Part shown: piece after piece, positions 4,175-51,527 of the stretch
Numbering within the stretch: the stretch's first letter is position 1
How the letters are laid out: each line of letters begins with the position of its first letter
Assembly (NCBI GenBank): GCA_963969365.1
Contig: OZ017763.1
Coordinates: forward strand, 1,302,001-1,366,000
Reading direction: 5' to 3'
DNA from: Asterochloris sp. CNOR1
Taxonomy: Eukaryota > Chlorophyta > Trebouxiophyceae > Trebouxiales > Trebouxiaceae
Length of the DNA: 64,000 bases
Translations under genes and position numbers: made by a program
The notes under the pieces: generated by a model
Told to the model about the DNA's origin: nothing
The model's database searches: none
Seen by the model: the letters and a program-made list of their open reading frames with translations, nothing else

Positions 4175-7100
4175 ATGGCACTCAGGGAGTTTGTGACAGC
4201 ATCAGACATGTGCACGCCGGATGGGGGTGCAGGGCCTTCAAATGCAGCAGCAGGGCTGGCAAACACACTTCTGGGGCGGTCTGCCAAGGATCAAGAGCGT
4301 TTGCGCGAGGTGATTGGGCTGAGCTTTGCGTCTCAGAACCCCTGCCAGTTGTGTGAGAGCGCTTGCGGGAGGCGAGTTCCTTGGGTGTGGTGTTTCGCTG
4401 AGCTGTCTCTGCACAAGTCTTTGCATCAAGCTGTGCATGTTGCCAGATGTGTGAGGACTCTCCTTCGGTGCCTGCAGCTCCCTGGCATTCAGGGGCAGCC
4501 AGGCCCTTCTGTCTACAGGCCAGCGCAGGCGCACACCGTCAATGCCATTGCTGAGGCTGCTGTTCAGGGTGAGCTCTGTGCACAACCTGCTGTCGCACCA
4601 TCCAGCAGAGGGCTTCTGCTGCAGTGGCTCATTCCTGGGTGCCTGCCTCGCGCACCTGGCATGCTCATCTCATGCAGCCTCCTTCAGACATGCTGGCTGT
4701 CAGTCAGTATAATGGTGCCAGGCCTGTGCGCTGCCTGCCTCTGCCAGAGGGCACCGTGTCCTCTGCAAGTCTGCAGACCTTTGATATAGCTGCCTTGGCC
4801 TGGTGACCAGCTCCAGATTCCAGGCGTGGCAAGCAGCAGTTTGAATCCTCTAAGGCTGCCATGGCCCCTCTGCTCTTGCGCCTGCCGGAGGGATGCACCA
4901 AACATCTCACCTGCGCAGACGCTGATGCCATTCCCTGCCCCTCCACCTGCCAGGTGACCTGCCTCACATCCCAGGCATGGCCAGCAGCAGCGCCTCCCCA
5001 TTCAGCGTGGACGAGTTCTTGCAAGGGGTGCCCCAGGCAGGGCCCCACAGTCACCAGCAGGAGCACTTCGATGCCATCTACCAGCAGGGGCTGCAGCATG
5101 GGCTGCCGCCAGGGCAGTGGCAGCACCAGGCGCCGCCGTCCATGTACCCTCCAGTCAATGCAGATGCCCAGGTGTTGTCACCCAGCCTGCAGGTGAGGCA
5201 TTTAGGTACCGGTGGTGCCCATCGTGCTGATTGAAACCAAAGAACCCCTTGGCCTGTCAGGCTCCCAGAAAAGAACCAGATGTGGCTGACGGCCTGGCTG
5301 GCGGCATGCATCTGCTGTTGATGCAGATGCCCACATGCTGTTGCCCAGCCTGCAGGTGAGGCAGCTGCATGGCCTTGGTGGTGCATGTTGCCCTGGTTGC
5401 GGCAACAGCCCCTCTGCCTGTCAGGTATTGGGAAAGCTGTCAATCTGGCATAGCTGGCGGTCTTCTGCCGCATCTGCTGTCAATGCAGATGCCAGATGCT
5501 GCCGCCCAGTCTACACGTGAGGCAGTTGGGTGTGCCTGTTGTGTTGGAGAGGAAATCCATTGTTGAGGATTGTCTGGAAAATCTTAGTCCTGGCATGCAG
5601 CCTTGTTCTGAGCATGCCTGCTGAGTGAGCAAGCCAATGCTTGTGCCCAGGTGCTTGTTAAGCGAGGCTGCAGGTGAGGTGACTGACAATCAAGGGCTAG
5701 ACAGCTGCAGGGGCTGTCTGACCCTACTCTACCTTCCAGGCTGCTGGAGCTCTGCTGCACAAGACCCATGCTGTTGTTTGGCAGACAGTACAGCTGGAAG
5801 GCACCTTCAAAATATTACACTGGCTCTGCTGTTGGGGCTGAGCTGACCTTTGTCCAACACTTGCGATGCGACATTCTTGGCTTTCTAAGAAAGGCACCCC
5901 CAGCATCAGCAGGCAGGCTATGTTGCTGCGCCCCAGGCCAGTGCAAATGGGTTTGTTGAGGTGCAGGCATCCCTGTGCAGCTGGCACTTTTGTGTGCCAG
6001 CTGCATGACAAAGTCAGCTGCGCGCCCAGGCCATGGCAGCAGTCCTGTACACATGAACTTGCAAATATGAACTCTTGGCAGCCAACTCCATGCCCTTGCC
6101 CCAGAAGGGGTTTTAGTGCCTGCCAAGCCACACAATCCTGCGGGACTACAGCCATCGTGGCCAGCAGCCAAGCTTGCACCACTTTAACGGCCATGCCCAC
6201 ACCCCAATTGTAGCTGTAACACTGCCATTTACTGCACTACTGCTGGGCTGCAGGCATTCATGGCCAGCGGGCGGGCCCGTGCCGCCTTTCACCCCATGCC
6301 GCTGCCTCAGATGCGATTGTCGGTGGAGGACCAGTGTCGTGTGCGTGACCGCAGCACCATCATGGCGCGGCACATGTATGCAGACCGTGGGGACGCCTTT
6401 GCAGACGAGCAGGTCACCTTTGAAGGCATCCTTGTGTCACAGCCCACTGACTCGCTGGTGATACCAAGCATTGTCATGGAAGGTCATCTGCTCAATGCAC
6501 AGGCTGCGCACCCTGCAGCTCCGGCCCGGAAGGTAGCAGCTGCCTGCGCCCGGCCGTTTCCACACAGAGCAACAGACAGCAAAGAGCAGAATGGGGCCAT
6601 GACCGTGCAGCTGGCCTGCCTGCAGGTGGGCAAGCTGCTGCGCTCCCTCAACATCAATGCGGAGCAGCTACCCTCTGGAGGGCAAGGCCCGCCGCAGTCC
6701 TGGGATGCCATTTTTCGTGCAGGTGAGACCTGCTGGTTGCGGGACAGGATGCTGTGCGGCACCCTGCCTCAAGCTTTGTTGCATAGCTGAGCCCTGCACC
6801 GGCTTTGGCTTGAAGGCAGGTCACAACAGCACAGCAGCTGGCCTGGCAGCGCCTGACAGCGCAGGGCTGGCAGGATAGCATTCCTGGTTGCAGTTGGGCC
6901 CATGCTGACAGACAGCCTGCAAATGATCAGGCACCGTCAAGCATGCTGCAAGGGGCACCTGGCCATACTTGTCGCCTATGCTGCAGCCTCTGACTCGCTG
7001 AAGCCTGCTATCACAGGTTCTGTTTGTGGGAGCTGGAGGGTGCTGCTTCTGTGCGCAGCAAGCTGCATGATAATTGGCAGCTGCAAGGTACATGGTCAAG

Positions 7101-10100: not shown

Positions 10101-12400
10101 GACACCCAGGCCATTGCCGCACTCAATAGGGCTCTGCAGGCAGACCCTGACAATGCTGAGGCAAGCATGTGATAAGCCTGCCATCAGCAACAGCATCAAG
10201 CAGCTCACATTGTGCCCAGTTTAGGGTTTGCATGGCAAACAGCAGGCTCAAGTACTGAGCCAGGCCCTGCAGAGACCCTGACAATGCTGAGACAAGCTGT
10301 TCTGCTTATGCAAGTTGTCAGACAGCCGTCTCGCAGCTTGAAGGTAGCCTCACCCACGGCTTTGTCGAGGCTGCTGAGCCATCTGAGGGGTTCGCAGCCA
10401 ACATGATGTCTGGTGCCGCTGCTGCTGGCGCTAGCTTTACTCAGCGTGCCCTGCCTGTCATCTTCACTGGTGGCAAGCACAAGCTCCTGCAGCATTGGCA
10501 TGTTGTCAGCATGCCTTGGGGAGCCTAGCCAAGCTGTCCTGCTGGATGGGGTTCTTGAGCTGCTGCTTCCCCTAGGAGTCAAGCTGCACCATGATGGTTA
10601 CAATGCTGTGCTGGTGCAGGAGGTGCTCTCTGCCAATAGGAGTTGGCAGCATCAACACATTCCATAGCAGTGCTGGTGCAGGAGCCTCTGCCCTGACTTC
10701 TGCCCCTTATCTGATGCCTCCTGTGACCTGGTGCAGGTGCTGTTGTCCCTGGGAGTCAGCTATACCAATGAGCTGGACCAGGCGCAGGCGCTGAACTACC
10801 TGCATAGATGGCTCAGCCAGCACCCCACGCACAGCCCGGCAGCCAATGCAGTGCCGGACCCTGGGGACCGGAGCCAGCGCCTGGCCTGGGTCATGCACAG
10901 CTTTGAGGAGGCCGCAACCACTGCGCCAGCTGATGGAGATTTGCAGGTGAGCGAACCAGGGAGTGACCTTGAGAGTTGGCTGGCATATCCTGCAGACCGC
11001 AGCAGCCATGGCAGCAACGTCAGAACTGGCTGCCCTCAGGGTCCTGTGAAGGCTGTCTGCAACTGTAGGCGGCCAGCAGCCTTACACCGCAACTTGTTTC
11101 TGCTTCACTCTCTGTTACGCATCTGCTGTCGCTGCCAGCAAGCTCACAGATCCTCTGCCGCTGCTGTAGGCTGCCCTGGGAGTGCTGTATAACCTCTCCC
11201 GCGAGTATGAGAAGGCTGTCACAGCCTTCAGGACATCCCTTCAGATCCAGCCCAAGGACTATAGCCTCTGGAACAAGCTGGGGGCCACGCTGGCCAACTC
11301 CTCACACAGCGCTGATGCCATCACGGCATACCAGCGAGCCCTGGAGCTGAAGCCCAACTACATGCGGGCATGGACCAATATGGGCATCAGCCAGGTGGGG
11401 GGTGGAGCAGGTGGCTGGCAACAGGCTGCAGGACTGCTGTCAGGTTATTGCCCACAAGCGGGCTCTGGTGCTGGGACCCTACTACACATAGGTGTGGGCT
11501 CATATGGGTATTTGCCAGGTGCGGGCTTGATGACCTAGGCTCTGCTCCATCACATTGCATGGGCTGCACGGCTGTCAAGCTGGCCCACCCAGTGGGCTCT
11601 GGCACTGAAGTACATCTGGTGGGCGTGGAGCATGATGGGCATCATCCACCTGGGCATTGGCCAGGGGCTCTTCAAAATGCATGGTAGGCATTGGGCTCCA
11701 CGGCTGTTGTCAAGGTGGTCCACATGGTGGGCTCTGGAGCTGTATTTGCATTACACAAGGCGCTGGACCAGCATGGTGTTGGTCAGGAAAGCTGTGGAGC
11801 AGACCGCCATGCGCTGATTTTGGCAGGCATCCAGTAACCCCCGACAATCTGGAAGTGTTGGCGGCCTTGGTCTGAGTGGAAGCAGTGCTTGCAGCAGACT
11901 TGCTTTGACTGTGTTTGGGATCGCAAAGAGCCTCGTTTCCCTTTTGTTGCCTGCTGTCATGTATCTCTGTCCATCATGACACGTGCTAGCATTGGCTGTG
12001 GCTGCAATCATAAGCAACCTGCTGCACAACCTGCTGCACAACCAAAGATGCCGGAATGGCTTCGCAAAGCTGCCCTCCTCAGGTGCTCCTATTGGACACA
12101 GACAAGTCCCATTGCCACTGAGTTTAAAATGATGCTGCCTTCCTGTGCAGGCAGATGTAGGGGAGTATGAGGTCTGTGCTCAAGACTACAGCCTTGACCT
12201 GCCTTGCTGTGCAGGCAAACGTGGGGGAGTATGAGGTCTCTGCTCGCTACTATACCCGCGCCTTGGCGCTCAATCCTAGCGCCTCTAGTGTGTGGGGCTA
12301 CCTCCGCACCAGCTTGGCCTGCGCTGGGCGTATGGACCTGATGGCTGCTGTCGATAACGAAGACTTGCCATCCCTGCAAGAGGCCCTGCCCCTGATGTGA
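4175..12400 (+). CDS. PEX5: PEX5, peroxisomal targeting signal 1 (PTS1) receptor
   Basis: PEX5 is the cycling receptor that binds C-terminal SKL-type signals and carries matrix proteins into peroxisomes. The ATG at 4175 begins [20 protein letters not shown] and [18 protein letters not shown], matching plant PEX5 N termini. Exons placed in phase: 4975-5192, 6254-6412, 6626-6722, 7272-7444, 7748-8017, 8293-8370, 8809-9022, 9527-9672, 10032-10160, 10737-10946, 11170-11394, 12215-12400. The link between the first exon (ending at 4309 or later) and 4975 is unresolved; 4519-4568 may be a small exon. Exon 6254 carries [20 protein letters not shown], a conserved plant block. Eight WxxxF/Y-type PEX14/PEX13-binding motifs follow (WASEF, WAAEF, WVEDF, WAEEF, WANEF, WADQF twice, WMEDF). 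From 9527 on come TPR repeats ending in [18 protein letters not shown]. Expected length is about 750 residues, near plant PEX5. The intron after 10160 has a GC donor (gcaagc). Confidence 0.96.
5148..5525 (+). repeat. Echo array of a PEX5 exon end
   Basis: The end of exon 4975-5192 with its donor (core: caatgcagatgcccaggtgt ... cagcctgcaggtgagg) recurs in the following intron. Decayed copies lie near 5317-5362 (gatgcagatgcccacatgct, then cagcctgcaggtgagg) and 5478-5525 (caatgcagatgccagatgct, then a gtgagg). The spacing is about 165 bases. Confidence 0.75.
10141..10300 (+). repeat. Echo of a PEX5 TPR exon end
   Basis: The exon end cagaccctgacaatgctgag followed by gcaagc (10141-10166) recurs at about 10270-10295 as gaccctgacaatgctgagac and aagc. 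The copy keeps the junction but has lost the GC donor. Confidence 0.75.
11338..11670 (+). repeat. Echo array of a PEX5 TPR exon end
   Basis: The end of exon 11170-11394 (gccctggagctgaag ... tgggcatcagccaggtgg) is echoed twice in the intron. One copy is at about 11460-11525 (gggctctggtgctggg ... gggtatttgccaggtg). The other is at about 11594-11665 (ggctctggcactgaagtaca ... tgggcatcatccacctgg). Confidence 0.7.
12151..12260 (+). repeat. Echo of the last PEX5 exon start
   Basis: The acceptor and start of the final exon (tgtgcag, then gcaaacgtgggggagtatga, 12208-12260) are preceded by a copy at 12144-12196 (tgtgcag, then gcagatgtaggggagtatga, ggtctgtgct). Both copies are open in the same frame. 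Confidence 0.8.
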
Positions 12401-12861
12401 ACTGCTGTCCAGACACCTGCCCAGGCTGTCGCCGCAAGTGCAGAGCAGCTCCATGAAGGCATCAGAGGGGTGCTGCTATGATGCAATTGCAATTTTGGAC
12501 GCCACCCTTCATCCCCTTTTGCTTCGAATGCATGCAGCATCTGCCAACATGGTCCTGTGCCCATGCTGGCTGATCGTTATAGATGTACAACATATCCTTC
12601 TGTGTTTGCCACACCAGACTCTTGTAAGCTGCAGTACAGCCGCTGTACTACAGTGAGTGTCTCGATCCAACTGGGTTCACCTCTGGCACGCACTTTACTG
12701 ACCTCGACTCAAGGCTGAAAATGAAAATTTCGTGCATCTTGAGTGATACTTTTACTTCTATGAGCCCCACGCTGTTTGAACACCACTGAGTTGTCTGAGA
12801 GTCCGTGAACCTCTCCCGAATGATGAAATGATTACCAGCGTCTTCTTGATAAGGCCCCCTC
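12401..12861 (+). other. PEX5 3' UTR and ABC transporter 5' region
   Basis: This is the 461-base gap between the PEX5 stop and the ABC transporter ATG in head-to-tail orientation. Apart from the TGTAA at 12623 I see no motif. It must hold the PEX5 3' UTR and the promoter of the ABC gene. Confidence 0.5.
12623..12627 (+). terminator. Candidate TGTAA poly(A) signal for PEX5
   Basis: TGTAA lies 223 bases after the PEX5 stop. TGTAA is the usual polyadenylation signal of chlorophyte algae. No mRNA evidence is available here, and a five-base match can occur by chance. Confidence 0.4.
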
Positions 12862-15800
12862 ATGCAGCTCAGATCAGGTTGCCATGGCAAGAGTTTAGAC
12901 TCTCCTGCTCCACTGAATGGGACGCCATGCCTTCGGCAGCAGCTCAGAAATCCCAAGCAATCTCTGCATCGGTTGCCAAGGAATACTCAAACTCGCGCTG
13001 ACAGTGAGACTGGGAGCGTAGCAGACAGATACTACAGCCACAAGGCCCAGCGCGCAACCCTCAAGGAGGGGCCATTGAAGGCGTGGCGGGAATGGTGGTG
13101 AGTTGTGCGCAACAGGCCCCACGGTGTACCTCATGGCACCGGCACCCAAAGCGTGCAGTCTGCAAGCCCACAGCCCATGGTCTTACGGCATCACTTATGG
13201 TGCTGCCCCACATTGTGCAGCAAGATTGCCACCTCGGCGGTCTTTCTGCACACACCAGTGGCCGCGCCACAGCATGCATGGCTGCTGTGCCTCTTGCTGC
13301 CCATCGCTCAGCTTGTGCATACCAGTTGCTGCACAACAGCATACATGGCTGCCTTGCGTCTTCCTCATCAGCGTACACAGCATGCACGCAAGTTGCCGCA
13401 CCACAGCATGCATTGCCGTCGTGGCTCTTCCAGTGCAGTGCCCACACTGTTCTTGTAGCTGTGCCACAGCATGCATGGTGCCTCAACCTCCTGCACAGCA
13501 CCCACACGTTGCTGCCCCTGCCTCCGTCAGCACAATGTGCACCCTCATTACTGCACCCCACGCATTATTCCCATTCCTGCTCTGCGCACAGGTACTTTGG
13601 AGCAGTGGATCAGAACAGGCTGCCCCCTTCACAGGGGCTGGGCAGGATCATGAAACGCATGTGGCAGATCATGAGGCACAGCAAGCGTGTGCTTATCCTT
13701 GCGGCAATCTGCATGGTGAGGTTGGCTTGCATGATATTGGGCTGAAGCACCCCTACATGCTATGTTTTGCTGTCTGGGGCATCCTGCTCAAGGGCCTTCG
13801 GCAGTGCTGCTCAAGGCTGCAAGGCAGCTTTTGCAGAATGCAGTCACCAAGTGTGACTGACATGTGGGAGCCCTGAATGTCTGGTCCCAGATGATCTGTT
13901 GTGTGCATGATGAGGATCAGGGGGCTCTGCAGGACCTGTGCAAGTTGATCAGCCCTCAGGAAACCGCCTTTGTACTGCTTGCATCAGACAGGGGTGTCTG
14001 GCACTGCATCAGGTACTGCATGACAGTACCTAGACATAGTCGCCTCCGCTTGCTCTCCTTTTGGGGTGCTGTAGCGCTCGGTGGATTTTGGTGGGTATTG
14101 CCCAAGTCTGTCATCAGTCCACAGTCAATGTCAACCTGCCCAGCTGCATGGCAGCATATTGTCTTTGATTGCTTTAGATATAGCGACTCTGGCGCGCTGC
14201 CCCCCACAATTACTGGCAGACTGTCCGAGCTGGCCAGTGACTTTTATTATGCTGGACTTCCAAAACTGCCTGTATTTGTCTGACTGAGCTGTGCAGACGC
14301 TGGGTACCCTGTGTTAGTTAAAAGTAGCTGGGTCACATGCCTAGCTGACGCCTCTACATGACTCTTCTGGCTGACATCTGCCTCCACCTGGCTGCAGACC
14401 CTGGCGGCCATGTCAGAGTTGGCCATTCCCCACTTCGTGTCCGCCTCTATTTTTGCCCTTAACAAGGCCAACTCAGCTGAGCTGTTCAAGCGCAACCTCA
14501 CCTTGCTGGCCACCATGGCCTTCAGCTACGGTATCTTTGCTGGCCTGAGAGGTTACCTGTTCAGCCTGCTCAACATCGACCTTATCCAGCGTCTCAGGTG
14601 AGATATTGACATTTATGTAGATCTCAGGCGCTAAGGCTCCTCATGGACAAGAGCAGCCTGCTGGCCTGCTGGTCAAGGCCTTCAGCATGTTCAGCAGAGC
14701 AGTGCTTGATGTCTAGATCTTCCAATGCCTCATTTAGTGTGTTCAGCGAAGCAGTGGATGATATTGAGCTTTGCCAGCGCCTCTGGTGTTATGTTCAGCA
14801 AGGCAGTGCTTGATATTGAGCCTTTCGGCCCCTCAAGTGAGCTGGGACCAAGCAGCAGCAAGCAGCAGCGGCCTCATGCTGCAGGGTGTGTCCTCCTTGA
14901 GCCTGCCACTGCACTGCAGCTGCACATGCAGCCGTGTCTTGCACAACCAGGCACTATCCTCCTTTGCTTGGTGGGGCCACACCAAGGCAATGTGCTGCTC
15001 CTCCTGCCAGCTGCTTGGCGCCCCGCATAGGGCTACCATTCATCCTGAGAAGCAGCTTCTGCCTTTGCAGCAGAAACTCTGTGGTGCCCTGTTTTGAGAG
15101 GTTCAACAGCAATCCCTCCTGGAACGTACCCCTGAACATCCCCCGCTGCTGGCCCTGTAGGGCAAATGCAGGAAGCACAGAGATCATTGTCTGTTCTGTG
15201 CCTTCAGCACAGAGCAGGATGATCCATCCTCCAGAGCCGAATGCTGGTGTCTTGCCTGCAGGGAAGCTTTTTGTTGCCCTGTTTGATCAGAGGGTCTGCA
15301 ACCCCTGCCGCCACCCCTTGCAGTTCCCTGACACCAACCGTTGCACATCGCTTCTCCTGCCGTACAGGGGCGAACTTTTTGGTGCTCTGCTGAAGCAGGA
15401 GATCTCTTTCTTCGATAAGGAGGAGGTGGGGGCTCTGACCAGCCGTTTAGGAGCAGACTGCTCGTCGGTCACCCGGGCCCTCGCCACCAACATCAATGTG
15501 GCGGCTAGAAACTCCCTGCAGGCCATTGGTGAGTGGTTTGATTTTGCCGGGCAGGGAGTGGACTGCTGCCCTGATGTATGAGCACAATGCCTGCTCACCT
15601 GTGTGACCTGACATGCTGTAGCAAGGCCAACGAACGGCGCACCAGCAGCAAAGGCCTGCTGCCGTGTGGCGCACTGATGTGTGCGTGGATCCACCACATG
15701 CAGCAGCCCATGACGCTTCATCGCATCCGACTTGGCTGCATCACCTGCAGACAGGCCTGCAGCGTCTTGCCTCAATGTGTCACTGACACAAGTCTCTGTT

Positions 15801-24719: not shown

Positions 24720-24985
24720 TCTGAGATTTGTTCTACTTGGCTTGTGCTTGCTGGTGGCGAGGGTCTGACAAGCCTTTGTGTTGTCACGTCACAGGGCCAA
24801 CAGTGCTAGGGTATGTGGGCTGATTCTGCTGTCTTTCTTGCTTCAGGCAACAAGGCAGCATCGGGCTGAACCGTACCTGCACTCGACACAGATCCGGAGA
24901 AAGTGGGTCAGAGGCCTGACCCATTGCATAGCACAGGAAGCTCATCAGAAGAGCTGTCCCTGCTTCAAGTGATCCTTAGAACGCT
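24720..24985. promoter_or_regulatory. Divergent region between MBF1 and the CIA30/SDR gene
   Basis: The MBF1 start codon at 24719 points left, and the first open exon of the CIA30/SDR gene begins in or after this stretch. Both promoters must therefore lie here or slightly to the right. No defined motif was recognised. A short 5' exon with the ATG of the CIA30 gene may also be hidden here. Confidence 0.35.
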
Positions 24986-38800: not shown

Positions 38801-38884
38801 AGGAGGATGATGTTGGTATGAAAAAATTTCATGGTGCAGGCGGCCCACATGTGAAGGACATCCAGTGCAGGGATGTTGGATTTG

Positions 38885-41800
38885 TTAAGCAAGGGTCCCT
38901 GTGAATTTGTGGCCATAGCTGTACAGGATTTCGTCATGAGGTCGCTGATCTTTGAGGGCATACACAGCAACTCTGTGGTCTCCATCAACAAGCTTGATCT
39001 CCACGCGGCAGTTGGGGTCATCCCTGCAGGCAAGGCAGCTGCGTGTGAAGACTTAACGGTAGAGGACTCTGGCGCTCCAGGCCACTCCAGGCACACACAG
39101 GTGCAGGCCCAATGTGTAGGTACAGTGCTCACATTTTGGTTCAAGCAGGTTCTCATGCACAGGCCATGATGGTCAAGGCAGCAGAGACCTGTGCAAGCAC
39201 AAGGCTGCACAAAATTTTGAGTACTTGTGAGGAGGCAGTTTGGCTAGTGCAGCCCAGTGCTCAAGAGTGGTTGGCAATGCGCAGCTTGTTGCCAGTATGG
39301 GGGTGCCCAAGCTGCTCTTGCTGGCAACAGACTTGCAGCACTGGCAAGGTAGCAATGAAGGCAGCTCACAAGGCGTACCTATCTGGTCAGCAGCAGATAG
39401 GTTACTTATTGTCAAGCCCTCACAAGCAGGGCAGCAACTCATACAGGTGGTGCCAGAGGCCAATCAGTTCAGCACATCACTCACGAGTGATTGGCAAAGC
39501 GCAGCTTGTTGCCCTTGTCCTTAGCATCCACCACCCAGTTATCGTTCAGCTCAAAGAGGTACGTGCTCTCGTCCCTGCAGTGCAAACAGTCAAGCGCTGT
39601 GGGTGCTGGTATTGTGGTGCTGACTTCGAGACATGCTCATGCAGACAGGCCTGCACTTGTTGAAGAGCTGCCTGCACACCACACTGTGCTGTTGAACATG
39701 GTGTGCAGGCAGCCAGCGCTGCTTGAGGGCTGCCAAGTGCTGCAGACCATCCTCTGGCTGCACAAACAGATGCATGTCTTGAGCTGAAACAGATGCAAGG
39801 TCTGTCCCTGCAGGACATCCAGCCACATGCTGCACCTGAAGCCTGTGTATGCATGGCATGCAGCCACGCAGCCAGGCAACCCCTGTGTGGCTCCCAGATG
39901 GCTTGTTGCTGCATCTGGAGCCTCACAGGTGCAGGCGCAGGCAATGCAGCACAGCAGGGCAGAGAATCAGCCTTCATTGTGCTGCGCACCCAGGAGCTCC
40001 CTGATTGTTGCTGGCTGCATGCAAAGCTGTGCAGATGCAGCAACAAATGGGTCACGAGCAAACCATCATGCTGTAGGTGCCCCTCTTGCTTCAGTGCTCC
40101 ATGCAGGGCAACCTCGCTGACAGCTACATGCCGGAGGCACTGCAGGCACCTATTGCTGCAAGCATGCAGGCATGCTCCTCTGCCAGGGCTGCCCACTGTG
40201 AGTCACTTCTAAAGCGAAGGGCCTGCAGGTTCTGCAGCACCCCACGGCCAAGTTTGCATGCAGCACAGCCCCCAACATGCACCAAGGCCAAGGAACATGA
40301 GACTGTATGGCCTCCAGAAAACCTGCAGTGCACCTGTCAACTTTTGGTTCTGCCTTGACACACAGCCTTCAGCTAAGGAAACAGCTCCCCAGTGGCTGAG
40401 GGCTGCACCCATCACCTTGCAGATATATTCAAGAGACACGGCGTGCAGGCATGGTGTTGCACTGAGGGCACTCCTAAGTTATTGCGGGCATGCTTCTCAT
40501 GCGATGAGCCCTGCCGCGTGCTGAAACCAGAGGCAGGCCTGAGCCACCGCTCAGCACCTCCACATGCACCATGGCTCCACAGCAGTACCTAGGCGCACCT
40601 TTCATGAGCCTTGCCCCAGTGCCCAGCCTCCAGCTGGTCAAATAATTTTTGCTGAAGCTGCACCGCCAGGGCCCCATCTTCAAACTCATCCAGGGTGGAC
40701 ATGCAGACAGTCCCCTCGTGCCAAGCCATTGTTGAAGCTATGATTGTGGCCACTTCATGAGCTGAATGACACTCAAGGGGTGGGCAGCGCACCTGTCATA
40801 GGCCTTGCCCCTTCGCTCAGCCTCCATCTGATCGATGACCTCCCCGGTGTATTCCCCCACAAACTCATTCTTGGCGATGTGCTCCTGCAAGGTGGATTAA
40901 TGCGAGCTGCAGACATTGTGGGTTGCCTCATTGCCATCTTGTGATGTCATCAACGTGCTTCTGCAGGTGCAGCAGCTGTCTGCCCCGGCCAGGGGCGCAT
41001 CTTACACTCCTCTGTAGCAGGTGCAGGTCGCATTATGCAGGTGCTGTACACATATGCTGCCAGACATTGTAGCAGGGACGCTCCCAAGCTGTCTTGGCAG
41101 ACATTACCCTGAAACAATCTTCATGACACGGCCCTGCACACTGCCGACATGCGTGCCTCCCCTAACACACAACTATGACCCACCATAAACAGGATGTTTT
41201 TCTGGCAGCACTGCCTGGCACCAACACTGTTCAATAACCCTCAATTGCACCTATCAGCAGGTCAGCCTAGATGGAATAGGCCGCTGAGACAGGTCCCTGC
41301 CAGCCCGTAGAAAGTCAGCAGAGGCACGCTGTGTTCGTGGAGCAGTGCGTTAGCCAGGAGTAGGTGCCCATACTGCAGCCTACATGCCTGCTTGTGCGCA
41401 CCAGGACACTTGCCAGCAACGCAGATCCGCACACGTTTTGACTGCCGCCAAGCAGCCCCAGTTTGGCAAGGTCCTCCACCCCACATCCTGAGAAGCGCCC
41501 CTGGCCACCCGCCAGATGACTGACCACACGCGCATTGCAGCAGCTGCTAGACCCCCAGCCTGCTCACCATGGCAAATGCGCCCCACCCCGCAACCTGGGA
41601 GATGCCCATAGCCACCCGCTTGTGCTGGCGCAGGCGCAGGGGCATGTTCAGGCAGTCCATGGCGCCCTTACGCTTGGTCTCAGGGGCGTCTGTTGTGTGG
41701 CGGCAGGGGGCGCACAGGTCAGGGTCGCACTCCCGCCCTGCAGCACAGACGAGAGAGATTGGCTGAGTGGCAACCCCTTTAGGGTAGTGCTGACTCTTTT

Positions 41801-44800
41801 GCAGTCCAGGATTGTTGGGTGTCGCCCTGCAGCAGGCAGGCAGGCAGCGCACAATGATGTGCTACTGGAACATGCAGAAGCCCAAAGGGGCGAACCCCAA
41901 AAGGCGTTAGTGGCGTGGCGGCAGGGGTGGCACAGGTCATGGTTGCGCTGCAAACCTGCAACACAGCAGATGACTGTTTTTGGCAGGAGATACATGCTGG
42001 CACGCAGGGCATGGCCAGTCTGAGGTCTGCATATACTGCCCCACAGCAGAGGGCCCGGCGACCGTCTTGAGACTAGCTGATTCCAGGGCATTGGTGGTGT
42101 GGCGGCAGGGCCCACACAGGCTGCAGTCACACTTGTGCCCTGCTGCATGGCAGGTGGAATTTATGAAATGACCATTTGTGGGCGCAAGGAAGGTGCCATT
42201 GGGACTGATGTCTCAACCTGCTGCTGCAGTCAGGGTCTTGCTTGATGTTGTCGAGGCACGCATGATTTTGCACCTGCTCTAGCAATCACCGCCACAAGCA
42301 ACACCAATCCCTTGGGCACAGAGCACTGCACATGGTATCAGACAGCATAGAGCTACTAGCAGCCAGCACCTGTCCGCTGACGACAGACAGGCAGGGACAG
42401 CAAGTGGTCTTGCACTTGACCCACGGGAGATTTGTTGAGCGGCACTGGGATGGCAAGGACCCAGCAGCCTAGCACCCAACGGCGGCGATGCCAGGACACC
42501 GCGCTTTGAGCAGCCCTGGATTGGCAAGGACCCAGCAGCCGGGCACCCACAGACGGCAACACAAGGGCACCACTTTGTTGAGTGGCACTGGATTGGCACA
42601 GACACAGCAGCCCAGCACCCACCAGCGGCGACGCAGGGGCAACGCTTGGTGCCGCACCCGCTGCGGCACTCGCACCCTGTCCAGCGTGCTGTGCATCTGG
42701 GCCCGCAGGCGCAGAACTTCTCGCAGAACAGGCCGCGCGAGGCGCAGGGGCACCCCTCCTTGCAGGGCCCCTCCTCCAGGTTGCAGTTGCAGGCGCGGAA
42801 CTCAGCGGTGGTGTGGTTCTTGTAGTACCGCTGGGCCACCACCTGCACATGGGGATTTGTGCCTGGAGGCGAGGTGTGAAGGGAAGGGGAGGTGGCTGTG
42901 AGAGCTTTGGCCAATGCTCATATACTGCCTCGCCTTTGACCAGCGGCTGGCGCATCAGACATCCTAGGCACAGGCCAAACAGCAGAGTAGGCACAACTGT
43001 AGGTGAATGCCTCAGTACTGTGAAGGCATGTGACTGTGACTGTCTGGCAGGCTGCTCCGCCACAGTTACAGGGAGGCATGTCAAGCAGACACCACTTAAT
43101 TTGGCAAGAGACAACGCAGCGCTCCTTTGCTGCGGTTGACACCACTTTTGCTTAGCTTGTGCACCAAATGCAGGCTCTTCCAGACATGCACAGCCATTGC
43201 TGATCAGCAACTTCTCAAGACCAAGTGCGTGTGACTGATAGTTCTGCAGTACTGCACTCATAAGAGGGCGGCTTGCATCTGACCTGCTTTGAGGCACACC
43301 CAGGTGACGATTGCAGAGCAAATATACTGACAGACTGCAAGTCGTGCTCACATGAGAGGCCGGCTTGCGCTTGATCTGTCCCGAGGACTTCTTGTGCGCC
43401 ACGAGCAGGCGCTTCTTGCGGCGCCGGACCATGTTGGGGGCAGCCTTGGCAGCCTGGCTGTCCGTGAGGGCGGCCGCACCCGCCAACGCTGCTGGCATGC
43501 CCACTAGCTGCAGCGCAAGGGAGCAGTCACCAGACCTGCATGCTGTGCTGGACAAAAAGTTGAAGCTGGAAGCAGTCGCCTGCTGTGTGTCAGCATTGCT
43601 GCTCTGTCGGCCCTGCCGGCATGCTGGGCCATTGCAGGCTCAGTGACTGTTCAGCATCAATGTCTGCCGGTTGCCAAGCAGCTGCAGGGGAGTGGAGCGG
43701 GTAGACCTGCAGGCCATGACTGTGAGACACACAAGTGGAGAGGCATTGCAATGCGAGCAGCTGCGCATCAGTGGAGCTGCCAGTGTGCCGCACATGCTGG
43801 CGAAGGCGGCCACCAAGCACCGACTGCAATGTGTTACAAAATATCTACCCAGGCGTGATGTTCCTTGTGCAACAAAGCTTGATGGGACAGTCTGATCAAG
43901 CCAGCTGCGGACTAGCTGTGCACTTCAAAGCGCTGCAGACGCCCTGCTGTTTGAGATTGCAAGCACACCTAACTTGGAGCGTGGCTTGCATCTCACTGCA
44001 GGTCTAGAGCCCAGCATGCCTGCTTGAGCCGTCCTGAGCAGTTCTGGATGCCTCACCTGGAGCCTGGCATGCACCTCGCAGCAGGTCTTGGACCCCAGCA
44101 GGCGCGTCATCTTGCAGGCATCCCCGCAAAACATCTCGGCCGCTCGATCAAAGACGCTGATCTGCAGAGGGGGGCAGAAGATGCAACAGGCGAGAACAGC
44201 TGGTGGAGCGTGGTGGTCTCAGGCTGGGGCAGCAGCGCAGCCAGGCTGTATGTGCTGCCGAGCAAGTGGAGTGAGTGTGCTGCTGAGCAGGTGGGGTGAG
44301 AGAGGTGAGAGAGGTGAGATGGGAAGAGGAGGGGATGCTCTTCAGACGAGCATGCAAACATTGATGCCAACAACAGCAGCGGCGTGCTGTGAGCACAGTT
44401 TGAACCCTGGAATTGCGAAAGCTGTGATGCAGCTCCTGTTCTCGAATTTGCATGGTTGTGCTGGCTACAAGTGGACATAGGCAACTGGGCAAGGCTCCCG
44501 CATTTGAAGGCAGTTTGCGGCCACAATGTTCACCAACCTCAAAGGGCGTCCACATCCGTTCCGCATCGTGCACAGTCGTGGCCTCTGCCTTGTTTGTGTC
44601 TGGAGGACTCTCGGCCACTGCTGAAGCGGTAGCAGGCAGGGTCCTGGCTGCCTCGGGATCCCGCTGCTGAGTGTGCTCTGCAGCGTCGGCTGCAGCTTGC
44701 ACAGTGAGCTCAGACGTGGGCGGGGGGTCGGCGCGTTGCAGCGCGAAGAGAGCAGCAGCCAGCAGCACGCTGCGTGCAGCAGCCCCCGCTTGCGCTGCCT

Positions 44801-47800
44801 CTGTCAGTGCTGCCTGTGAAGCCTGCTGGCTGCACGCAGCTGCCCCACCCTGCCTGGTCTGCTGGTGGTGTGCCCACAGCTGGTGCCTGGCCGAGGCGGC
44901 AGCAGCACCCTGAGCAGCACCACGCACCTGCCCGGCTGCCTCTGCCTGAGGGCCCAGGTGCTGTCTACCTGCAGCATCAGCACCGTGCCCTGCCTGGGCC
45001 TGCCGTGCCTGCCCAGCCCCCTGCCTGCCCTCAACAGCCACCAAGCTGCGAGAGGCCCTGTGGCCCTGCTGTGCCCCCAGTGAGGTCGCCTCCGAGTCAG
45101 AGCCGCTGGCCCCAGCTGCCCTCTCACCAGAGTCCCAGTTGCTGGTGCTGGGTGACAGCACTGAACGGCGGGAAAGTGGTTGAGAGGCAGCCTGTTGCAT
45201 GTCCCCTGCCCGCTGTCCTGCCCGACGTCCCGTCGTGCCAGCTGCTGGCTGTGCAGTGCTGCTGCCAGGTCTGCCTGCTTCCCCGCTGCAGCGGCCTGCG
45301 CTGCCCAAGGCAGTGCCTGGGTGGTCGAGCTGAGGCTCATCGTTGCTCAGGCCAGGGCGGGAGGCAGCCTCATCGTCGCTGCTGAGCAGGTCAATGACAT
45401 CGCCTGCAGAGGCATCGGCTTGGATGCCACAACTGATAGGCATGCATTGGCTGGAGGGCAAAGTGAAACCCTGCCAGAGCAGCTTGATCTGTGTCACTGC
45501 TGAACATATCAACAAGGTCTACGCAGCGGTAAGGCCAAAGATCGCAACTGGCAAACCACCACTGGCTGGGTTTCTTAACAACTCTATACTGTGTGGCACT
45601 GACAGGATCCATGATATCCCTTGCAGATTGTCGTCACTATTGTTCTTGTCAGACTTCAGCATTGGCTCACGAGTTCTGCCACTGCAGCAACTGGCATCCG
45701 TCCACTCAGCTGGTCAAGTAGCGGCAAGGACTGGCGACCCCACCTGGGGCAGCCTGCACCCTGCTCTTGCAACAGCAGAAAATACTTGAAGACCCAGAGG
45801 CGCAACAATGAGAGTGCAGGGCCTTTAAGTCTAACATCTGCAATCACCTGAGGCAGCTTGCATCTGCTCCCACAGCTGCCGGCTGTGCTCTGACTGTGAC
45901 TCAGCTGCCCTACCTGAGGCATTCTGTATGGTCTGTTGATTATGTTTGACAGGCACCACCCAGACAGCAAGGCCTGGGCTCAGACAACCACATTCACCTG
46001 AGGCAGTCTGCACCTGCTCTTGCAGCAGCTGGCTATGCGTGGGAGCCTGAGATCCGCTACGCCGTCCCGAGAAGGTCCTGGCCGGCGTGATGGCCAGACT
46101 GCGCCTGAGCTGGCCATCCAGGGCTGCCTCCTGCTGCTGCTGCTGCTGAGCCTGGACGATTGCCGCCAGGAACAGCTCTGCAGGGCATGTGGGTCCTGCT
46201 CAGAACTGGCGCAATGGGATGGGGCCAACCAGCTGCCTCCAGGGTGGAGTGCTTCAGCAGGGCAGGGTAGCTGACCTCAGGGACAGGTGTCAGGGCAGTG
46301 TGTGTGATTGCTGCTCAGCGTCTGGAACAGTTCACTGTATCTGCAGGTCATGACTTGTACTGAGCAAGGACAAGAGGCAACGTCCCAAGTGGCAGCTCCT
46401 GCTGCTGCTGAGGGCTGCCGGGCCTGGGCAGTGCCCCCAGTGACAATGAATGGGGCAGCCATATGATGCTCAGTGCGCCGCAGGAAGTGTGTCAAGCTTG
46501 CCGACACCAGGCTGGGCAGAATGGCCCTCGATAGGCTGGACAGGGCCACTTCGAGTGCAAGGCCACCTGCTGTGACGACAGCTCGGCCGAAAGCAGGCCA
46601 TCTGGCAGGTTACATCTGGCGTCACGACCATGCAGCCTGTAAGCAAACACAGAGCAGTGTACCATGGACACCTGCAGTGCCCCATTCCCGGAACCAGCAT
46701 GCCAAGGCACGCGGCTGCATTTGCAGCCACACTACAGGTCCAGCCTGCAGTCTGCAATCTGTCCACCTGCATACTGGTTGATGCCTTCAGGCCCTGCCTC
46801 AGTCCCTGCTCCCTCATGCCCTGGCAGCTGACAGCCCTGCGACGGGCTTTCCCCGCCGCTGCTGATCTCAATGACGTCCACCTCTGCAGCAGACATGGCT
46901 GCTGCAGGCTCAGCAGCCTCTTGCCGGTGTGCTGCCTGGGGCTGCTGCATCTCGCTGGTGCCAGCTTGGGCTGACTGTGCAGCAGTGATGGCAGCACGGA
47001 TGAAGGTGTTTGCGGGTGAGCTCGGGTCGGTCCCTCTGCTGGTGTCCATGGACCTAGAGCCTGCAGACACAGGTACCTGCTCAAGCAGCCGTCCAGTGGA
47101 GGCAAACACAAGCTCCCTGCAGCCGTCCACGACATGCATCCTGCAGACACAAATGCCCGCTTGAGAGCCGCCCATCAGTACAGGCAACCTCAAGCTCCCT
47201 GCAGCTGTCTACCACAGGGAGCCTGCTAACACAGATGCCCACTGTAGTGGCTGCCCAGCAGTGCAGGCACCCCAAGGCTGCAGCTGTCTATGAAGTGGAC
47301 CCCTGCAGACACAAACAGCCCTGAACAGCCCCTCAGCAGTGCGGGCGACCTCAAGCCCCCTGCAGGGCTCCACGCACGCAGTGTACTTGGGAAGGAACTT
47401 CACGTCTTTGGCTTTTCTGAACTTCAGGATGAGGCTCACAGCAGGTTTGCTTTCCCGATGTGGTTAGCAGAGACAGCCATCATGCAAAGATCTCTGCTTG
47501 CCCAGGCATGAAGAGTTGGACACCTGCAAGGGGGCCTCTGATGCAAAGAGAGATCAAAGAGGAGCACTCACAGCAGCACTTTACTCCCACAGCATGGGGG
47601 ATGCTTCAATGGCTGCAAGGGGACCTTGCATGCAGGGCCCACACCTGCATGCAATGCTGCTGTAGTCCCTCCTCAAGGCCTGGAGCCACTGTCCCCTGGC
47701 AGCTGGCTGATGGGGGCATTGACAGCAGTGGTGGATAGCACAGGAAGATCTGGTGCAGCAACTTCCCACTCACTTGAAATCACAGTCCCCCCTGGGCTGA

Positions 47801-50800
47801 TATGCCCACGCGGTGATGCTGCAGGTTGGGCCGCTGACGGCTGCTGGGCTTGGAGGGGGCGTCCCCGCCAGCGTCTGCCGTGTAGCTGCGGCTGCTCGGC
47901 AGGCTCTGCCTGGGCAGCCGCTGGCTCAGAGTCCGTGTCCATGTCGTCAGCAGAGCGCTTGGCGCCAGACAGCGGCATGTTGACGCCGACCTGCACCGGC
48001 ACATGGGCTCTCAAAGGCGCGATAGCTGCCTCTGTGTGCTGAATGGAAGCGCAAGCAACCCCTACTATTCTTGAGCATCACTGATGCTCAGGCTGGGCCC
48101 AGAGTGATGAGTGTGGTGGTGAGTACTGCTGTGACGCACAGGCACATCGTGACACATCGGGGGGGCCAGGGCTGACCCAGTGCTCAGGCAATCAGGTTCA
48201 GCAGCTTTGGACCTGGGGGCTGCACACTTCCTGCCTGCCGCCCGCAGCTGCATCGGCATGCACTGCGCTCCCAGCGGCAGACTTGGAAGCCCTGCCTCTG
48301 GGCCTGCCTGCTCCACATGGGCTGCCTGGCTTGAAGGCGGCGTCAGCAGCACGCAAACCTTGCCCAGGTGCAGCTGCATGGGTGCCTGCCTCTGCCCTGG
48401 CAGCAGCGCCGCTACCTGTGCCAGCGGTGGCCAGGCCTGCAGCACTTATGGCAGCTGCCGCAGCGGCAACACTGCCACTTGCGTGCCGCCAGCAGCTGGA
48501 GCCGCAGGCTGGAGCTTGCAGTTGTGGCGGAGTCCCCTTACTCCTCTGGTGCGGCCTGCACAGCACAGTGCAGTGCATCAGCCAGGTCCCTGAACTGCAA
48601 ACAAGTTGTGTAGCATACAGATGGCATGCATCAGCAGCTAGTGATAGTGCGCCTTGCATGACACCAGGATGCCAGCCTGTTCTACCCTCGCGGAGCAGTC
48701 GTTGACAGCAAATCAAGCAGCACCACTTGGTTGCTAGCCAAGCATTGTTCGTAGCCGCCATGAGCAAACTCCTCTTGGATGGATCTGGGTTCCCACCCGG
48801 AACAGGGTGCAGGGCAGGGCACCAAGCAGCACTTGCCTTCAAGCACCTGCCATGTGGGCCCCTCAATTGATGTTTTCACCTATCTGTGCAGTGCAGGCAG
48901 CTGCCCTGGGTTGATGCAGCTTACTGCGAGGTTGAATGACCCATCAGCAGACTGAACCGGCCGAACAGTCTCTGATTCTCATGCAGGGTCTCACTTGGGG
49001 TTGCCGCCTCTGTGCATGGAGCATTCATACACCTTGCACCGCCGGCAGAAGTTGCGGGCCAACCTTGCCAGCAGAATGTCCAGCTTCTGTCTGTCTGAGG
49101 CGAAGGCAGGGCTGGGCGGCACCGAGGGGGTCAGCACCCCCCTCATCCGCCGCAGGATCACCTCTGCACGGCAGGCGCAGAGCTGTTGGTGCTATGGAGG
49201 AAACAGCGGCCTGGGCAGGGCTGGAGGTGTACAGCACGCTCTTCTGAGCTGCAGGCAGGGCACGCAGGCAAAGTTGCTTGGAGAAAGAGGGAGGGTTGGT
49301 CACCACTGAAGTAGCACAAACACATTTCTGTAGGGCAGAGTGGGCAGTCATTGTGGCTGTGCTGACAATGAAGGGCAAGAGAGTACAGCACCGTCCTATT
49401 CCACCAGGCACAGCACATCATCAAGCACAGCACAGTGTTGGCACAAGCTCATGTAGGGCAGCCACTATCAGGGCCTTCAGCCCTGTGTGCGGCGCATGAT
49501 GGCCTTTTCTAGATGGCATCAGGATGGCCTCTACTGTGTTGCAGCAGGAGGTCGCATGCCAACTGCACGACACAGGAAAGCAGGCGCATATGCCAGGCCA
49601 GGCAGCATCATAGCACCAAGCAGGTTCACTGTTGACGCCAGCAAGCTCACCATCAGCTCCACTATCAGCAGAGCCAGCGCCAAGCCCTCACCCTCATTTA
49701 CATCAGATCTTTGCTATGATAGGCCTCACCCACAGCTGGGGAGCTCCAACAGTGCAAGCCAGTTGGTGCAGCAGAGTCGGGGCCAACATCCCACAAAAGA
49801 GGCTCACCGTCGTCAACATTATACTCCTCCGCGACTGCTTCCACCACAGCTGGGGACATCCCATAGGTGCGGGCCAGCTGGTGCAGCACAAACAGCTCGC
49901 GCTCACGGTGGGGCCCCTCGAAGACGCCCTCAGCCTCCCCGCCATCTCCCTCACTGTCTGAGGCAGGGATGGTCTCCCCTGCAGCGGGGAGGAGACGCGA
50001 TCTGGTGAGGACTCGTGCCATGGTGTGGCACTACATCAGCTCATGAGCAGGGACTGCCTTCCTCCCACTTGCTGCATGCCCCTGCACAGAGCTCAGCCTC
50101 AAAGCCAAGCACGTGGCTAAGCAGGCAGCTTGAGCTAGCATTGAAGCCTGGATGTGCAGCAGCACTCACAGTGATCCCCGGCAGTCTATTCCGCTGGCAA
50201 GGCCATAGCCTGCATCTGGATTCTTGTCAACAACAGAGCAGATCTCAATGGGGCAACTGGGCCCTGTTTGCCCCCTGGCAGACGGGCATTACCATGCACA
50301 GATTTCTTGTTGAAGGAGCATGCTTTTGCATCATTCAAGCGACGAATTTAGCCAGCTCAAATGCAGCGACTGTATAGAACACAGCCCTGCATGTCATATG
50401 CACCCCTTCCATGCAGAGGAAATGCTTTTCAGACCGGTCTAGGTGGCAGAGAGCTTACAACAGGTGGCTTCCGGTGCACTGATGCAAGCAGTTGCCCCTG
50501 CCAGCCTACCGGCAGCGTCTGTGTAGAACATGGTCCTGCCTGTCTCCTGTGCTAGCTCGTTCCTCTTGAGATAGACCCATGTCTTGTACTGGGGGACAGG
50601 CTCGTACGCAGGAAGCACCTGCACACGCGCATTACAGCAGCTCAGCCATCAGGTGACAGGCCAATCGGCAATGGTCGAACAGGCAAAACACCTCAACATC
50701 TTCGCACAAGTAACAGCTGCAGCCAGCAATTGTGCGTGAAGGGTATTCAATGCATGCCACCCCCAAGGGCAGGCACAACCTGTCAGTGATCAGCTGGGTT

Positions 50801-51527
50801 GCGTGGCCAGCTTTTGCAAGTGCTGTCCCCTCCCATGTGCATGGCCTCATGATAACATGCCAACACCTCTGCTGCCTGCTGTAGCGCTTCAGGCTACTAG
50901 CTACCTGCCTCTGTGTAGCAGCAAGGTCCGCTTGCACTACTATGCCAGGCCGTCCCAGATGTGTTTAAACGGTTTTAACATCCAGCTGAGCTGACCTCTG
51001 CCCAGCATGAGGTCCACGCCTCTCTGCTGTGTGTGTAGAACTTGGAGCCCTCAGCGCTGGCCGGTGTCCGGGCAAAGGGCAGCGATGGCCAGGCTTCCCG
51101 CTGCTGGTGTACCTCTAAAGCCCTTTGCTGCACGTATGCCTGATGCAGCAGGCACACAACAAGCTTGGTTGAGACTTCCAGCGAGCCCAGGTAGGCTGAG
51201 AGTCGTTGAGCATGAGGTGCACCTAAAATCTGCTCAAGATTGGACTCACACAATTCAAGCACTTAGACTCCTGAACCTTTTGCGCTGCCACTGTGGTGCA
51301 GGACATTGAGAGCTGTCAGCAGTCACATGCTGTGCATGCTGACCTGATTCTCCTTCAGCACCTGCTTGGCTGTGCCTAATCTCTGGGCAGCAAAACGGTT
51401 GCGCAGGGCAGCTATCTGCTCTGTAAGCTGTCCAGATTGAAGATCTGCACTTAAGGAGTAGTCAGAAGAGTGGCAAGCAATACCAAAGCAGCTGCGAAAC
51501 TTCCCTGGCACCTGTGCTGTCCGTCAT
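38885..51527 (-). CDS. EZH: Enhancer of zeste, PRC2 histone H3K27 methyltransferase
   Basis: E(z) is the catalytic subunit of Polycomb repressive complex 2. The ATG at 51525-51527 starts a 16-nt exon (51512-51527), joined to 51344-51444 ([17 protein letters not shown]). Next are 50996-51139, 50510-50618 ([19 protein letters not shown]), 49808-49978 ([16 protein letters not shown]) and 48995-49163 ([19 protein letters not shown]). The linker at 46500-48600 is only partly resolved. Then follow 44538-45403 (Ala/Gln/Ser-rich, ending MWTPFE), 44057-44161 (SANT-like; [18 protein letters not shown]), 43352-43507 (basic), 42623-42842 ([23 protein letters not shown]), 41568-41737 ([11 protein letters not shown] ... 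VAGWGAFAM), 40793-40884 ([20 protein letters not shown]), 39485-39574 ([11 protein letters not shown]) and 38885-39023 ([20 protein letters not shown] to EILYSYG, then stop). All SET motifs are present: GWG, GEYTGE, NHSxxPNC and a late Tyr. The protein is larger than animal or plant homologues because of the low-complexity linker. Confidence 0.95.
39240..39530 (-). repeat. Echo of an E(z) SET-domain exon end
   Basis: 39480-39520 holds the end of the exon coding [11 protein letters not shown] (plus strand: gagtgattggcaaagcgcag, cttgttgcccttg). A copy lies at 39256-39300 (gagtggttggcaatgcgcag, cttgttgccagta), inside the downstream intron. Confidence 0.8.
40575..40885 (-). repeat. Echo of the E(z) EYTGE exon end
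   Basis: The end of exon 40793-40884 and its donor (plus strand: cgcacctgtcataggccttg, ccccttcgctcagcctccat, ctgatc) are echoed at 40589-40645 (cgcacctttcatgagccttg, ccccagtgcccagcctccag, ctggtc), in the downstream intron. Confidence 0.8.
41690..42150 (-). repeat. Three copies of the E(z) RECDPDLC exon start
   Basis: The acceptor-proximal part of exon 41568-41737 (plus strand: tgtgtggcggcagggggcgc, acaggtcagggtcgcactcc) recurs at 41917-41960 (ggcgtggcggcaggggtggc, acaggtcatggttgcgctgc) and 42094-42140 (ggtgtggcggcagggcccac, acaggctgcagtcacacttg). Spacing is about 190-210 bp; both copies lie in the upstream intron. Confidence 0.85.
42425..42665 (-). repeat. Tandem copies of the E(z) CXC exon end
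   Basis: The CXC exon end (CPCVAA, donor at 42622) and its flank are repeated about every 75-95 bp toward the 3' side. Plus-strand units carry caccagcggcgacgcagggg (42619), cacagacggcaacacaaggg (about 42549) and caacggcggcgatgccagga (about 42478). They are joined by cagcagcc...cacc...ggcactggattggca spacers. The CXC reading frame stays open through all three. Confidence 0.85.
43968..44105 (-). repeat. Echo of the E(z) SANT-like exon end
   Basis: The exon end at 44057-44105 (plus strand: ctggagcctggcatgcacct, cgcagcaggtcttggacccc, agcaggcg) is echoed at 43973-44020 (cttggagcgtggcttgcatc, tcactgcaggtctagagccc, agcatgcc), in the downstream intron. Confidence 0.8.
47080..47400 (-). repeat. Tandem echo array in the E(z) linker region
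   Basis: A unit of about 75-85 bp recurs four times on the plus strand with the words cctgcagacacaaatgcccg / aacagatgccc / cctgcagacacaaacagccc and caagctccctgcagc(t/c)gt / caagccccctgcagggct. The last unit (47330-47440) joins the open minus-strand frame coding [17 protein letters not shown] and [12 protein letters not shown], probably the real exon, so the others look like its echoes. Confidence 0.7.

Follow-up and report, generated by a model that had tools for sequence, protein, structure and literature searches.

Exon-edge echoes: decayed, probably tandem-duplicated local copies of splice-junction sequence in the introns of the green alga Asterochloris sp. CNOR1

The lengthening of introns without transposons is poorly known. 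Small tandem duplications originating from staggered double-strand breaks were reportedly described by Vaughn and Bennetzen in 2014, and those arising from breaks have been the subject of much study (PMC8355091). Tandem duplication is an established source of insertions and of new introns (potato RdRp, PMC4974935; Drosophila, PMC2891723; PMC3443670; PMC8355091). In this study, a 64-kb stretch of the genome of Asterochloris sp. CNOR1 (assembly GCA_963969365.1, contig OZ017763.1, positions 1,302,001 to 1,366,000), hereafter the window, was found to contain introns with decayed copies of the adjoining exon edge, which we term echoes. Like tandem-duplication intron gain (PMC4974935, PMC2891723), echoes are direct intragenic duplications with splice-site sequence in the unit; there, however, a new intron is bounded by the copies, whereas echoes add length to an intron that probably existed already, with its two outer splice sites retained and the copied edge far from the opposite site. 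Staggered-break duplications (PMC8355091) are likewise direct, contiguous, short and local, but they are known as the commonest short (<100 bp) human insertions, whereas the local pairs described here have a median offset of 143 bp and appear to belong to a past wave in introns. Tandem exon duplication, including that behind mutually exclusive exons (PMC9013439), also leaves duplicated exon sequence in an intron on the same strand; the matches described here are instead anchored at one edge, in a search directed at exon edges and not separately at whole exons, and the copies drift as non-coding sequence. Introner elements (PMC9860276) also add intron sequence across a genome, but their copies are spread over many genes, whereas each echo resembles its own neighbour only.

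The echo pattern is real and strong, and its recurrence outside the window was confirmed in an independent sample of 200 kb, consisting of ten 20-kb places, one each on contigs 1-10 of a genome of 56,383,464 bp in 21 contigs (264 kb in total with the window). The last or first 60 bases of each exon were aligned with the adjacent intron by the Smith-Waterman algorithm, and a score of at least 90 was taken as an echo (at least 85 for length analyses). Exon edges of other genes, reverse complements, the far edge of the same exon and a block-wise first-order Markov simulation served as controls. Of 451 predicted introns, 427 were tested (95 in the window and 332 in the sample), the 24 outside 80-3000 bp being left out. 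Own exon edges reached the threshold in 7-10% of introns, as compared to 0-0.9% for the other-exon, reverse-complement and far-edge controls. Across all 427 introns there were 72 echoes (donor 42/427, acceptor 30/427); the corresponding numbers were 12/12810 and 18/12810 for exon edges of other genes (Fisher p 7e-53 and 3e-33), 2/427 and 0/427 for reverse complements, and 0/222 and 2/231 for far edges. The sample alone yielded 44 echoes in 332 introns (donor 24/332, acceptor 20/332; Fisher p 2e-30 and 1e-22 with the same controls). Matches end exactly at the splice edge in 22 of 42 donor and 16 of 30 acceptor echoes, with largest distances of 28 and 12 bp, and 21 of 41 genes have at least one echo. 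If the ten places are representative, the densities found in the sample (44 echoes in 200 kb) and in all sequence examined (72 in 264 kb) would extrapolate to about 12,000-15,000 detectable echoes in the genome.

Within the 95 introns of the window, 28 copies were scored, 18 donor-side and 10 acceptor-side, where about 0.2 would be expected from exon edges of other genes (other exons 4/2850 for donors and 3/2850 for acceptors; reverse complement 0/95 and 0/95; far edge 0/51 and 1/54). Fourteen fall in a merged PEX5/ABC-transporter model, six in a CIA30/SDR (HCF173-like) gene and eight in an E(z)-like model, while no echo was found in the other four window models with at least four tested introns (441-2024, 22792-24719, 34294-36898 and 56032-63719; 24 introns). 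The contrast between echo-rich and echo-poor genes may be tied to expression level or to age. Doubtful source exons lie behind two of the 28 echoes, namely 14799-14836 (38 bp) and 21227-21310 (probably itself a copy). An earlier reading of the window, made from its letters alone (the sequence-only reading), had named the same genes, within which all 28 echoes lie, and had correctly described the two forms, exon end plus donor repeated downstream and acceptor plus exon start repeated upstream. Its count of about twenty places was a slight underestimate, as there are 28, six exon edges have two to three copies and the CIA30 copies before 32183 come in addition; its spacing of 55-210 bp was too narrow, measured offsets being 52-360 bp. 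The comparison of own with control exon edges that it had proposed separates the two clearly, at 7-10% versus about 0.1% for exons of other genes.

Local repeats were also identified independently of gene models, by blastn self-comparison at E<=1 (and at E<=0.01), with same-strand and opposite-strand matches counted by offset. At offsets of 50-400 bp and E<=1 there were 152 direct and 0 inverted pairs (window 43 versus 0, sample 109 versus 0), and at E<=0.01 the direct and inverted counts were 32 versus 0 in the window and 71 versus 0 in the sample. The ten close inverted matches in the window are all less than 50 bp apart and are palindromes. Between 30 and 450 bp, 157 direct pairs were present in the real sequence and 0 in the block-wise Markov simulation; the 19 inverted matches of the simulation under 450 bp were counted from distance 0 and include palindromes. 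Comparison between different sequences at E<=0.01 gave only 4 same-strand and 5 opposite-strand matches, and blastn between sequences found no dispersed repeat family in the 264 kb examined, which rules out an introner or transposon origin. The sequence-only reading was thus right both in setting the copies apart from such elements and in describing them as same-oriented and local.

Echoes are concentrated in long introns. The share of introns with an echo (score of at least 85) climbs with length: below 250 bp it is 4 of 144, from 250 to 400 bp 14 of 134, from 400 to 600 bp 31 of 92, and from 600 bp upwards 30 of 57. Per class, the other-exon control gave at most 1.1 introns and the reverse-complement control at most 3. 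The 68 echo introns average 564 bp and the 359 echo-free introns 332 bp. The raw difference is the less telling figure, since by construction an echo can be found only in an intron with room for it; the telling result is that subtraction of the duplicated length (offset of the farthest copy, both edges summed; mean 218 bp) leaves 346 bp versus 332 bp in echo-free introns (p 0.29). Partial tandem duplication across splice junctions has therefore lengthened introns here, by the duplicated amount, as the sequence-only reading supposed. Detectable echoes account for 9.4% of all intron bases tested.

We propose, with a probability of about 0.8, that echoes are what is left of ordinary tandem duplications, local ones that spanned a donor or an acceptor. 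The evidence observed comprises direct orientation, anchoring at the splice edge, neutral decay, contiguity in most of the younger pairs, and an excess of length equal to the duplicated length. A local tandem duplication, mostly of 50-400 bp, would happen to span a donor or acceptor, and the surviving products would be those still spliced at the outer original site, with the exon intact and the extra copy falling into an intron that gains the duplicated length. Purifying selection would hold the exon copy while the intron copy drifts, such that exon-derived sequence would remain visible for about double the time of intron-derived sequence, and the copy would come to look like exon edge alone. 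As to the molecular cause, staggered breaks that are filled in and rejoined (PMC8355091) would give direct, contiguous copies and are in our view the most likely mutational source; slippage during replication and flap errors would give such copies as well. The copies are mostly too old for base-exact placement of their junctions.

Whether a whole tandem unit or only the exon edge was copied is the principal point to be weighed. Of the 60 echoes in which the intron part more than 12 bp from the edge could be tested, 14 outscore each of 40 controls there (about 1.5 expected) and 22 reach p<0.1 (6 expected). Among pairs of at least 86% identity, homology extends over at least 0.85 of the period in 12 of 19, several of these coming from the same arrays on contigs C7 and C5. 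Contiguity is clear where it is still visible, and two-sided decay plausibly hides it elsewhere. At 22 edges with at least two copies, the nearest copy scores higher in 15 and lower in 6, with one tie, which is no more than suggestive of a "conveyor" in which farther copies are older. Several observations weigh against a tandem origin. Of the 60 testable echoes, 46 fail to beat every control beyond 12 bp; pooled ungapped intron identity drops to the background of about 0.25-0.3 by 25-60 bp from the edge, which on a rough estimate is steeper than our hand-estimated two-sided decay with indels; and the copy at 39265-39293, whose exon part is 27/29 identical, loses its intron part after 19 bp. 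Splice edges are touched by 18 of 24 pairs of at least 85% identity versus 8.7 ± 2.0 by random placement in genes, and by 79 of all 138 pairs of at least 30 bp versus 52.7 ± 5.6. No pair lies in predicted intergenic DNA (22.8 kb), which is a weak point because neighbouring genes are merged in the models. In the length classes, reverse complements gave hits in 3 introns of 250-400 bp and 2 of 400-600 bp, and looser extended alignments of the 72 echoes have flat codon positions and 24 stops versus 44.7 expected. Copying of the edge alone, whether by short insertions templated near a break or by copying of splice junctions through RNA, and with no tandem arrangement, would agree with the excess of edges among younger pairs and with the 29 of 72 echoes whose extended alignment includes fewer than 20 intron bases. 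However, templated insertions arise in both orientations, while not one inverted pair accompanies the 152 direct local ones, and the intron parts do align in the 14 old echoes and along most of the period in the 12 younger pairs given above. We consider edge-only copying improbable, less firmly so for the old echoes. Local tandem duplication with the original splice site kept and the copy drifting, as first suggested by the sequence-only reading, agrees with the direct-only pairs, the contiguity and the neutral decay.

Neutral decay was seen in the strict cores, which are ungapped and cover 2647 bp from 66 of the 72 echoes; they fit a drifting copy beside an exon that changes mainly at silent sites. 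Mismatch at codon positions 1-3 is 20.4%, 16.4% and 23.1%, as compared to 25.8% at fourfold sites, and 11 stops occur in 845 codons versus 12.7 expected. The view that echoes work as duplicated exons, whether alternative or mutually exclusive, could draw on the few called as exons by the gene finder (31910-32101, 21227-21310), on the splice dinucleotide at the matching site of the copy (GT kept in 16 of 42, AG in 18 of 30) and on the stop deficit of the looser alignments. In our view over-extension explains that deficit, although the discrepancy stays on record. Stops at the neutral expectation and second-position mismatch so far below the fourfold value argue against functional exons, and two coding copies under purifying selection were not found among these cores. 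The offsets are multiples of three in 13 of 38 ungapped echoes, i.e. without bias, which also rules out intronised coding repeats, and in orthologues of two genes the segments checked (the one duplicated in CIA30 and one of those duplicated in PEX5) are present once. Functional exons are accordingly very unlikely. Similarly little credence is given to the birth of introns from a tandemly duplicated exon segment that carries AGGT (the Rogers/Hellsten model), with the echo as the duplicate that supplied the splice sites. This model involves the same mutation type and direct orientation and is established for intron gain (PMC4974935, PMC3443670), but it predicts the copied edge at the opposite splice site; a search for this signature found that none of the 72 copied edges lay 15 bp or less from that site, the median distance being 371 bp. 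In addition, echo introns equal other introns in length after subtraction, and therefore were probably introns before the duplication. Chance or composition, with exons and introns alike gcag-rich and acceptors carrying a strong TGCAG motif, has a likelihood near zero: it is ruled out by the other-exon, reverse-complement, far-edge and Markov controls, at rates of 0-0.9% for control edges versus 7-10% for own edges and with no simulated direct pair, and the low-complexity objection foreseen by the sequence-only reading fails with it.

Most copies appear, from a model fit, to derive from a past wave, with few recent ones. The fit used the 69 of 72 echoes whose query had the full 60 bp, and simulation served to measure how well copies are detected. 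In identity bins from at least 95% down to 60-70%, constant birth would predict 9.0, 7.7, 8.3, 9.7, 11.9, 12.0 and 10.4 echoes, whereas 1, 3, 5, 6, 24, 20 and 10 were observed (likelihood ratio 26.8). Per 0.1 divergence, the fit gives 1.8 births at K<0.1, then 5.5, 19.7 and, at K 0.3-0.45, 37.1; past 0.45 it gives 0, in a range where copies are poorly detected. The fitted rate is about 20-fold lower at K<0.1 than at K 0.3-0.45. Pairs found without gene models (length at least 30) also thin out when young, numbering 11, 10 and 3 per 5% step from 85% up versus 43 at 75-80%. Survivors rising with age are impossible under constant birth; therefore either duplication was commoner in the past or the copies were born diverged, the latter being unlikely. 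Assembly collapse of very young copies may contribute to their scarcity. The "steady source" of intron length envisaged by the sequence-only reading is not supported, with 1 of 69 copies at 95% identity or above where 9.0 were expected. The youngest example found is an array of about six 65-bp tandem units, 96% identical, around an exon start on sample contig 7 (17751-18136 of the joined sample sequence), where the gene model places exon pieces in three units.

Under this decay, an excess of pairs at exon edges is to be expected: of two pairs with equal observed identity, one at an edge has about double the age of an intron-intron one, and old pairs outnumber young ones. By a rough hand estimate, one-sided decay and the age curve predict an edge excess of about 3.5-fold, and about 5-fold was found. 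In our judgement, also by hand, one-sided decay is enough for most of the excess; a preference of duplication for exon-intron junctions is possible. Of the exon boundary as a special target, then, what holds up is the raw excess at edges.

The copies found in the window are listed in Table 1. The CIA30/SDR copies 31838-31980 and 31623-31661 are taken as intronic because three aligned orthologues have that protein segment once.

Table 1. Copies of exon edges in introns of the window (strand in brackets; identity as identical/aligned positions or per cent).
Gene	Copy	Source	Identity	Remarks
PEX5	4803..4839 (+)	exon start 4954-4990, acceptor side	30/37	
PEX5	5305..5355 (+)	exon end 5141-5192, donor side	40/52	first of at least 3 copies
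PEX5	5479..5531 (+)	exon end + donor, 5154-5207	81%	second copy
PEX5	10252..10291 (+)	exon end 10119-10160	33/42	
PEX5	11459..11518 (+)	exon end 11335-11394	41/60	weaker further copy 11589-11654
PEX5	12151..12203 (+)	exon start 12215-12267	39/53	offset 64
ABC gene	14747..14783 (+)	exon start 14799-14834	28/37	lowest score of the 28; short doubtful source exon
ABC gene	15073..15125 (+)	exon start 15263-15314	38/55	
ABC gene	16532..16590 (+)	exon end 16307-16366	42/60	
ABC gene	18398..18456 (+)	exon end 18188-18246	38/59	
ABC gene	18744..18788 (+)	exon start 18995-19040	33/46	
ABC gene	19366..19425 (+)	exon end 19102-19161 (presumably the Walker B region)	46/60	ungapped; weaker further copy 19526-19553
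ABC gene	20502..20547 (+)	exon end 20219-20264	36/46	
ABC gene	20585..20643 (+)	exon start 20945-21003	44/59	
ABC gene	21449..21498 (+)	chain 21049-21108 / 21251-21310 / 21439-21498		third in chain; middle copy modelled as exon
CIA30/SDR	26072..26128 (+)	exon end 25914-25970	41/57	
CIA30/SDR	27616..27664 (+)	exon start 27726-27778	36/53	
CIA30/SDR	28736..28788 (+)	exon end 28629-28681	38/53	
CIA30/SDR	30294..30330 (+)	exon end 30167-30204	29/38	
CIA30/SDR	31838..31980 (+)	acceptor + exon start 32112-32247	72%	partial weaker copy 31623-31661; outside the 28
CIA30/SDR	33014..33058 (+)	exon end 32803-32848	36/46	
CIA30/SDR	33428..33475 (+)	exon start 33493-33540	36/48	
E(z)-like gene	50363..50395 (-)	exon end 50512-50544	27/33	
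E(z)-like gene	46396..46445 (-)	exon start 46128-46174	39/51	CAG-rich, least secure
E(z)-like gene	45744..45799 (-)	exon end 45998-46051	42/56	further copy near 45841-45888
E(z)-like gene	43975..44019 (-)	exon end 44058-44103	37/46	
E(z)-like gene	41903..41951 (-)	exon start 41685-41733	39/49	further copy 42086-42147
E(z)-like gene	41464..41512 (-)	exon end 41570-41619	37/50	
E(z)-like gene	40599..40641 (-)	exon end 40793-40835	33/43	
E(z)-like gene, SET domain	39265..39293 (-)	exon end 39485-39513	27/29	homology ends about 19 bp into intron

Gene models were predicted ab initio using a self-trained two-strand hidden Markov gene finder, which gave 43 genes, 494 exons and 451 introns in window and sample with clean splice signals (consensus CAG|GTGAGC at donors and TGCAG|G at acceptors; these matrices come from the round preceding the introduction of a minimum exon length). 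An earlier round of gene models, of which 322 of 516 introns were used, gave the same picture as the final one. The models were checked by homology for window genes, the sample genes being ab initio models alone. Six of seven window proteins or pieces scanned had a Pfam match at E<=0.001, including MBF1, CIA30, ABC_tran and SET, and orthologues of PEX5 and of the HCF173-like gene placed 13 and 12 tblastn blocks, respectively, on predicted exons. The closest PEX5 proteins among the best 8000 candidates scored were those of Trebouxia sp. C0006 (60%) and Myrmecia bisecta (56%). Errors were also evident. The PEX5 and ABC genes were merged into one model, PEX5 exon 6254-6722 is split by the orthologue, and several predicted exons have no orthologue block (e.g. 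4478-4568 and 29605-29757). In the CIA30 gene, 31631-31678 and 31910-32101 are parts of two echoes called as exons, and predicted exon 21227-21310 of the ABC gene is probably another echo so called; echoes can thus mislead gene finders into false exons. Echo counts are conservative where models swallow echoes, and false exons could shift them either way.

Other repeats were noted in the same sequences. A 156-bp (52-codon) tandem repeat, 78% identical, lies at 58334-58630 within the long predicted exon 57172-58662 and is the same kind of duplication surviving in coding sequence. Exons of the E(z)-like gene are adjoined by tandem arrays at 42431-42645 and 47057-47365 (periods 71 and about 80 bp). 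Decayed second copies of both ends of gene 34294-36898, with the middle missing, occupy 37978-38658 (74% identity over 34117-34500 and 83% over 36864-36995), and the small predicted gene 38170-38391 inside them is probably a pseudogene fragment. In the sample, duplications of about 3-4 kb with pieces 72-84% identical were found on contig 2 (6238-8996 versus 9273-12223) and contig 4 (4487-8362 versus 8694-12655; positions in the joined sample sequences), which are probably tandem gene duplicates.

The sequence-only reading had called this a possibly undescribed mode of intron growth. As a process it is not, being a known mutation and a known route of intron gain; as the main source of intron length, junction-spanning duplication was not described in the titles and opening lines of abstracts of open-licence literature among the matches listed, and the word "tandem" is absent from the main texts of the two lichen-alga genome papers. 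What is new is tandem duplication as a main visible source of long introns. More tentatively, and with considerable doubt on our part, an ancestral wave of short tandem duplications may have been the main source of long introns in this alga, may have favoured junctions, and may have left exon-edge fossils in their thousands that can be dated. That young copies are so scarce amounts to a testable claim that mutation or repair has changed in this lineage. Because selection holds the exon copy, exon-edge echoes are a readable and datable record of duplications that have otherwise faded, which makes it possible to count and date growth intron by intron. If the wave is real, intron growth could be reconstructed event by event from these fossils.

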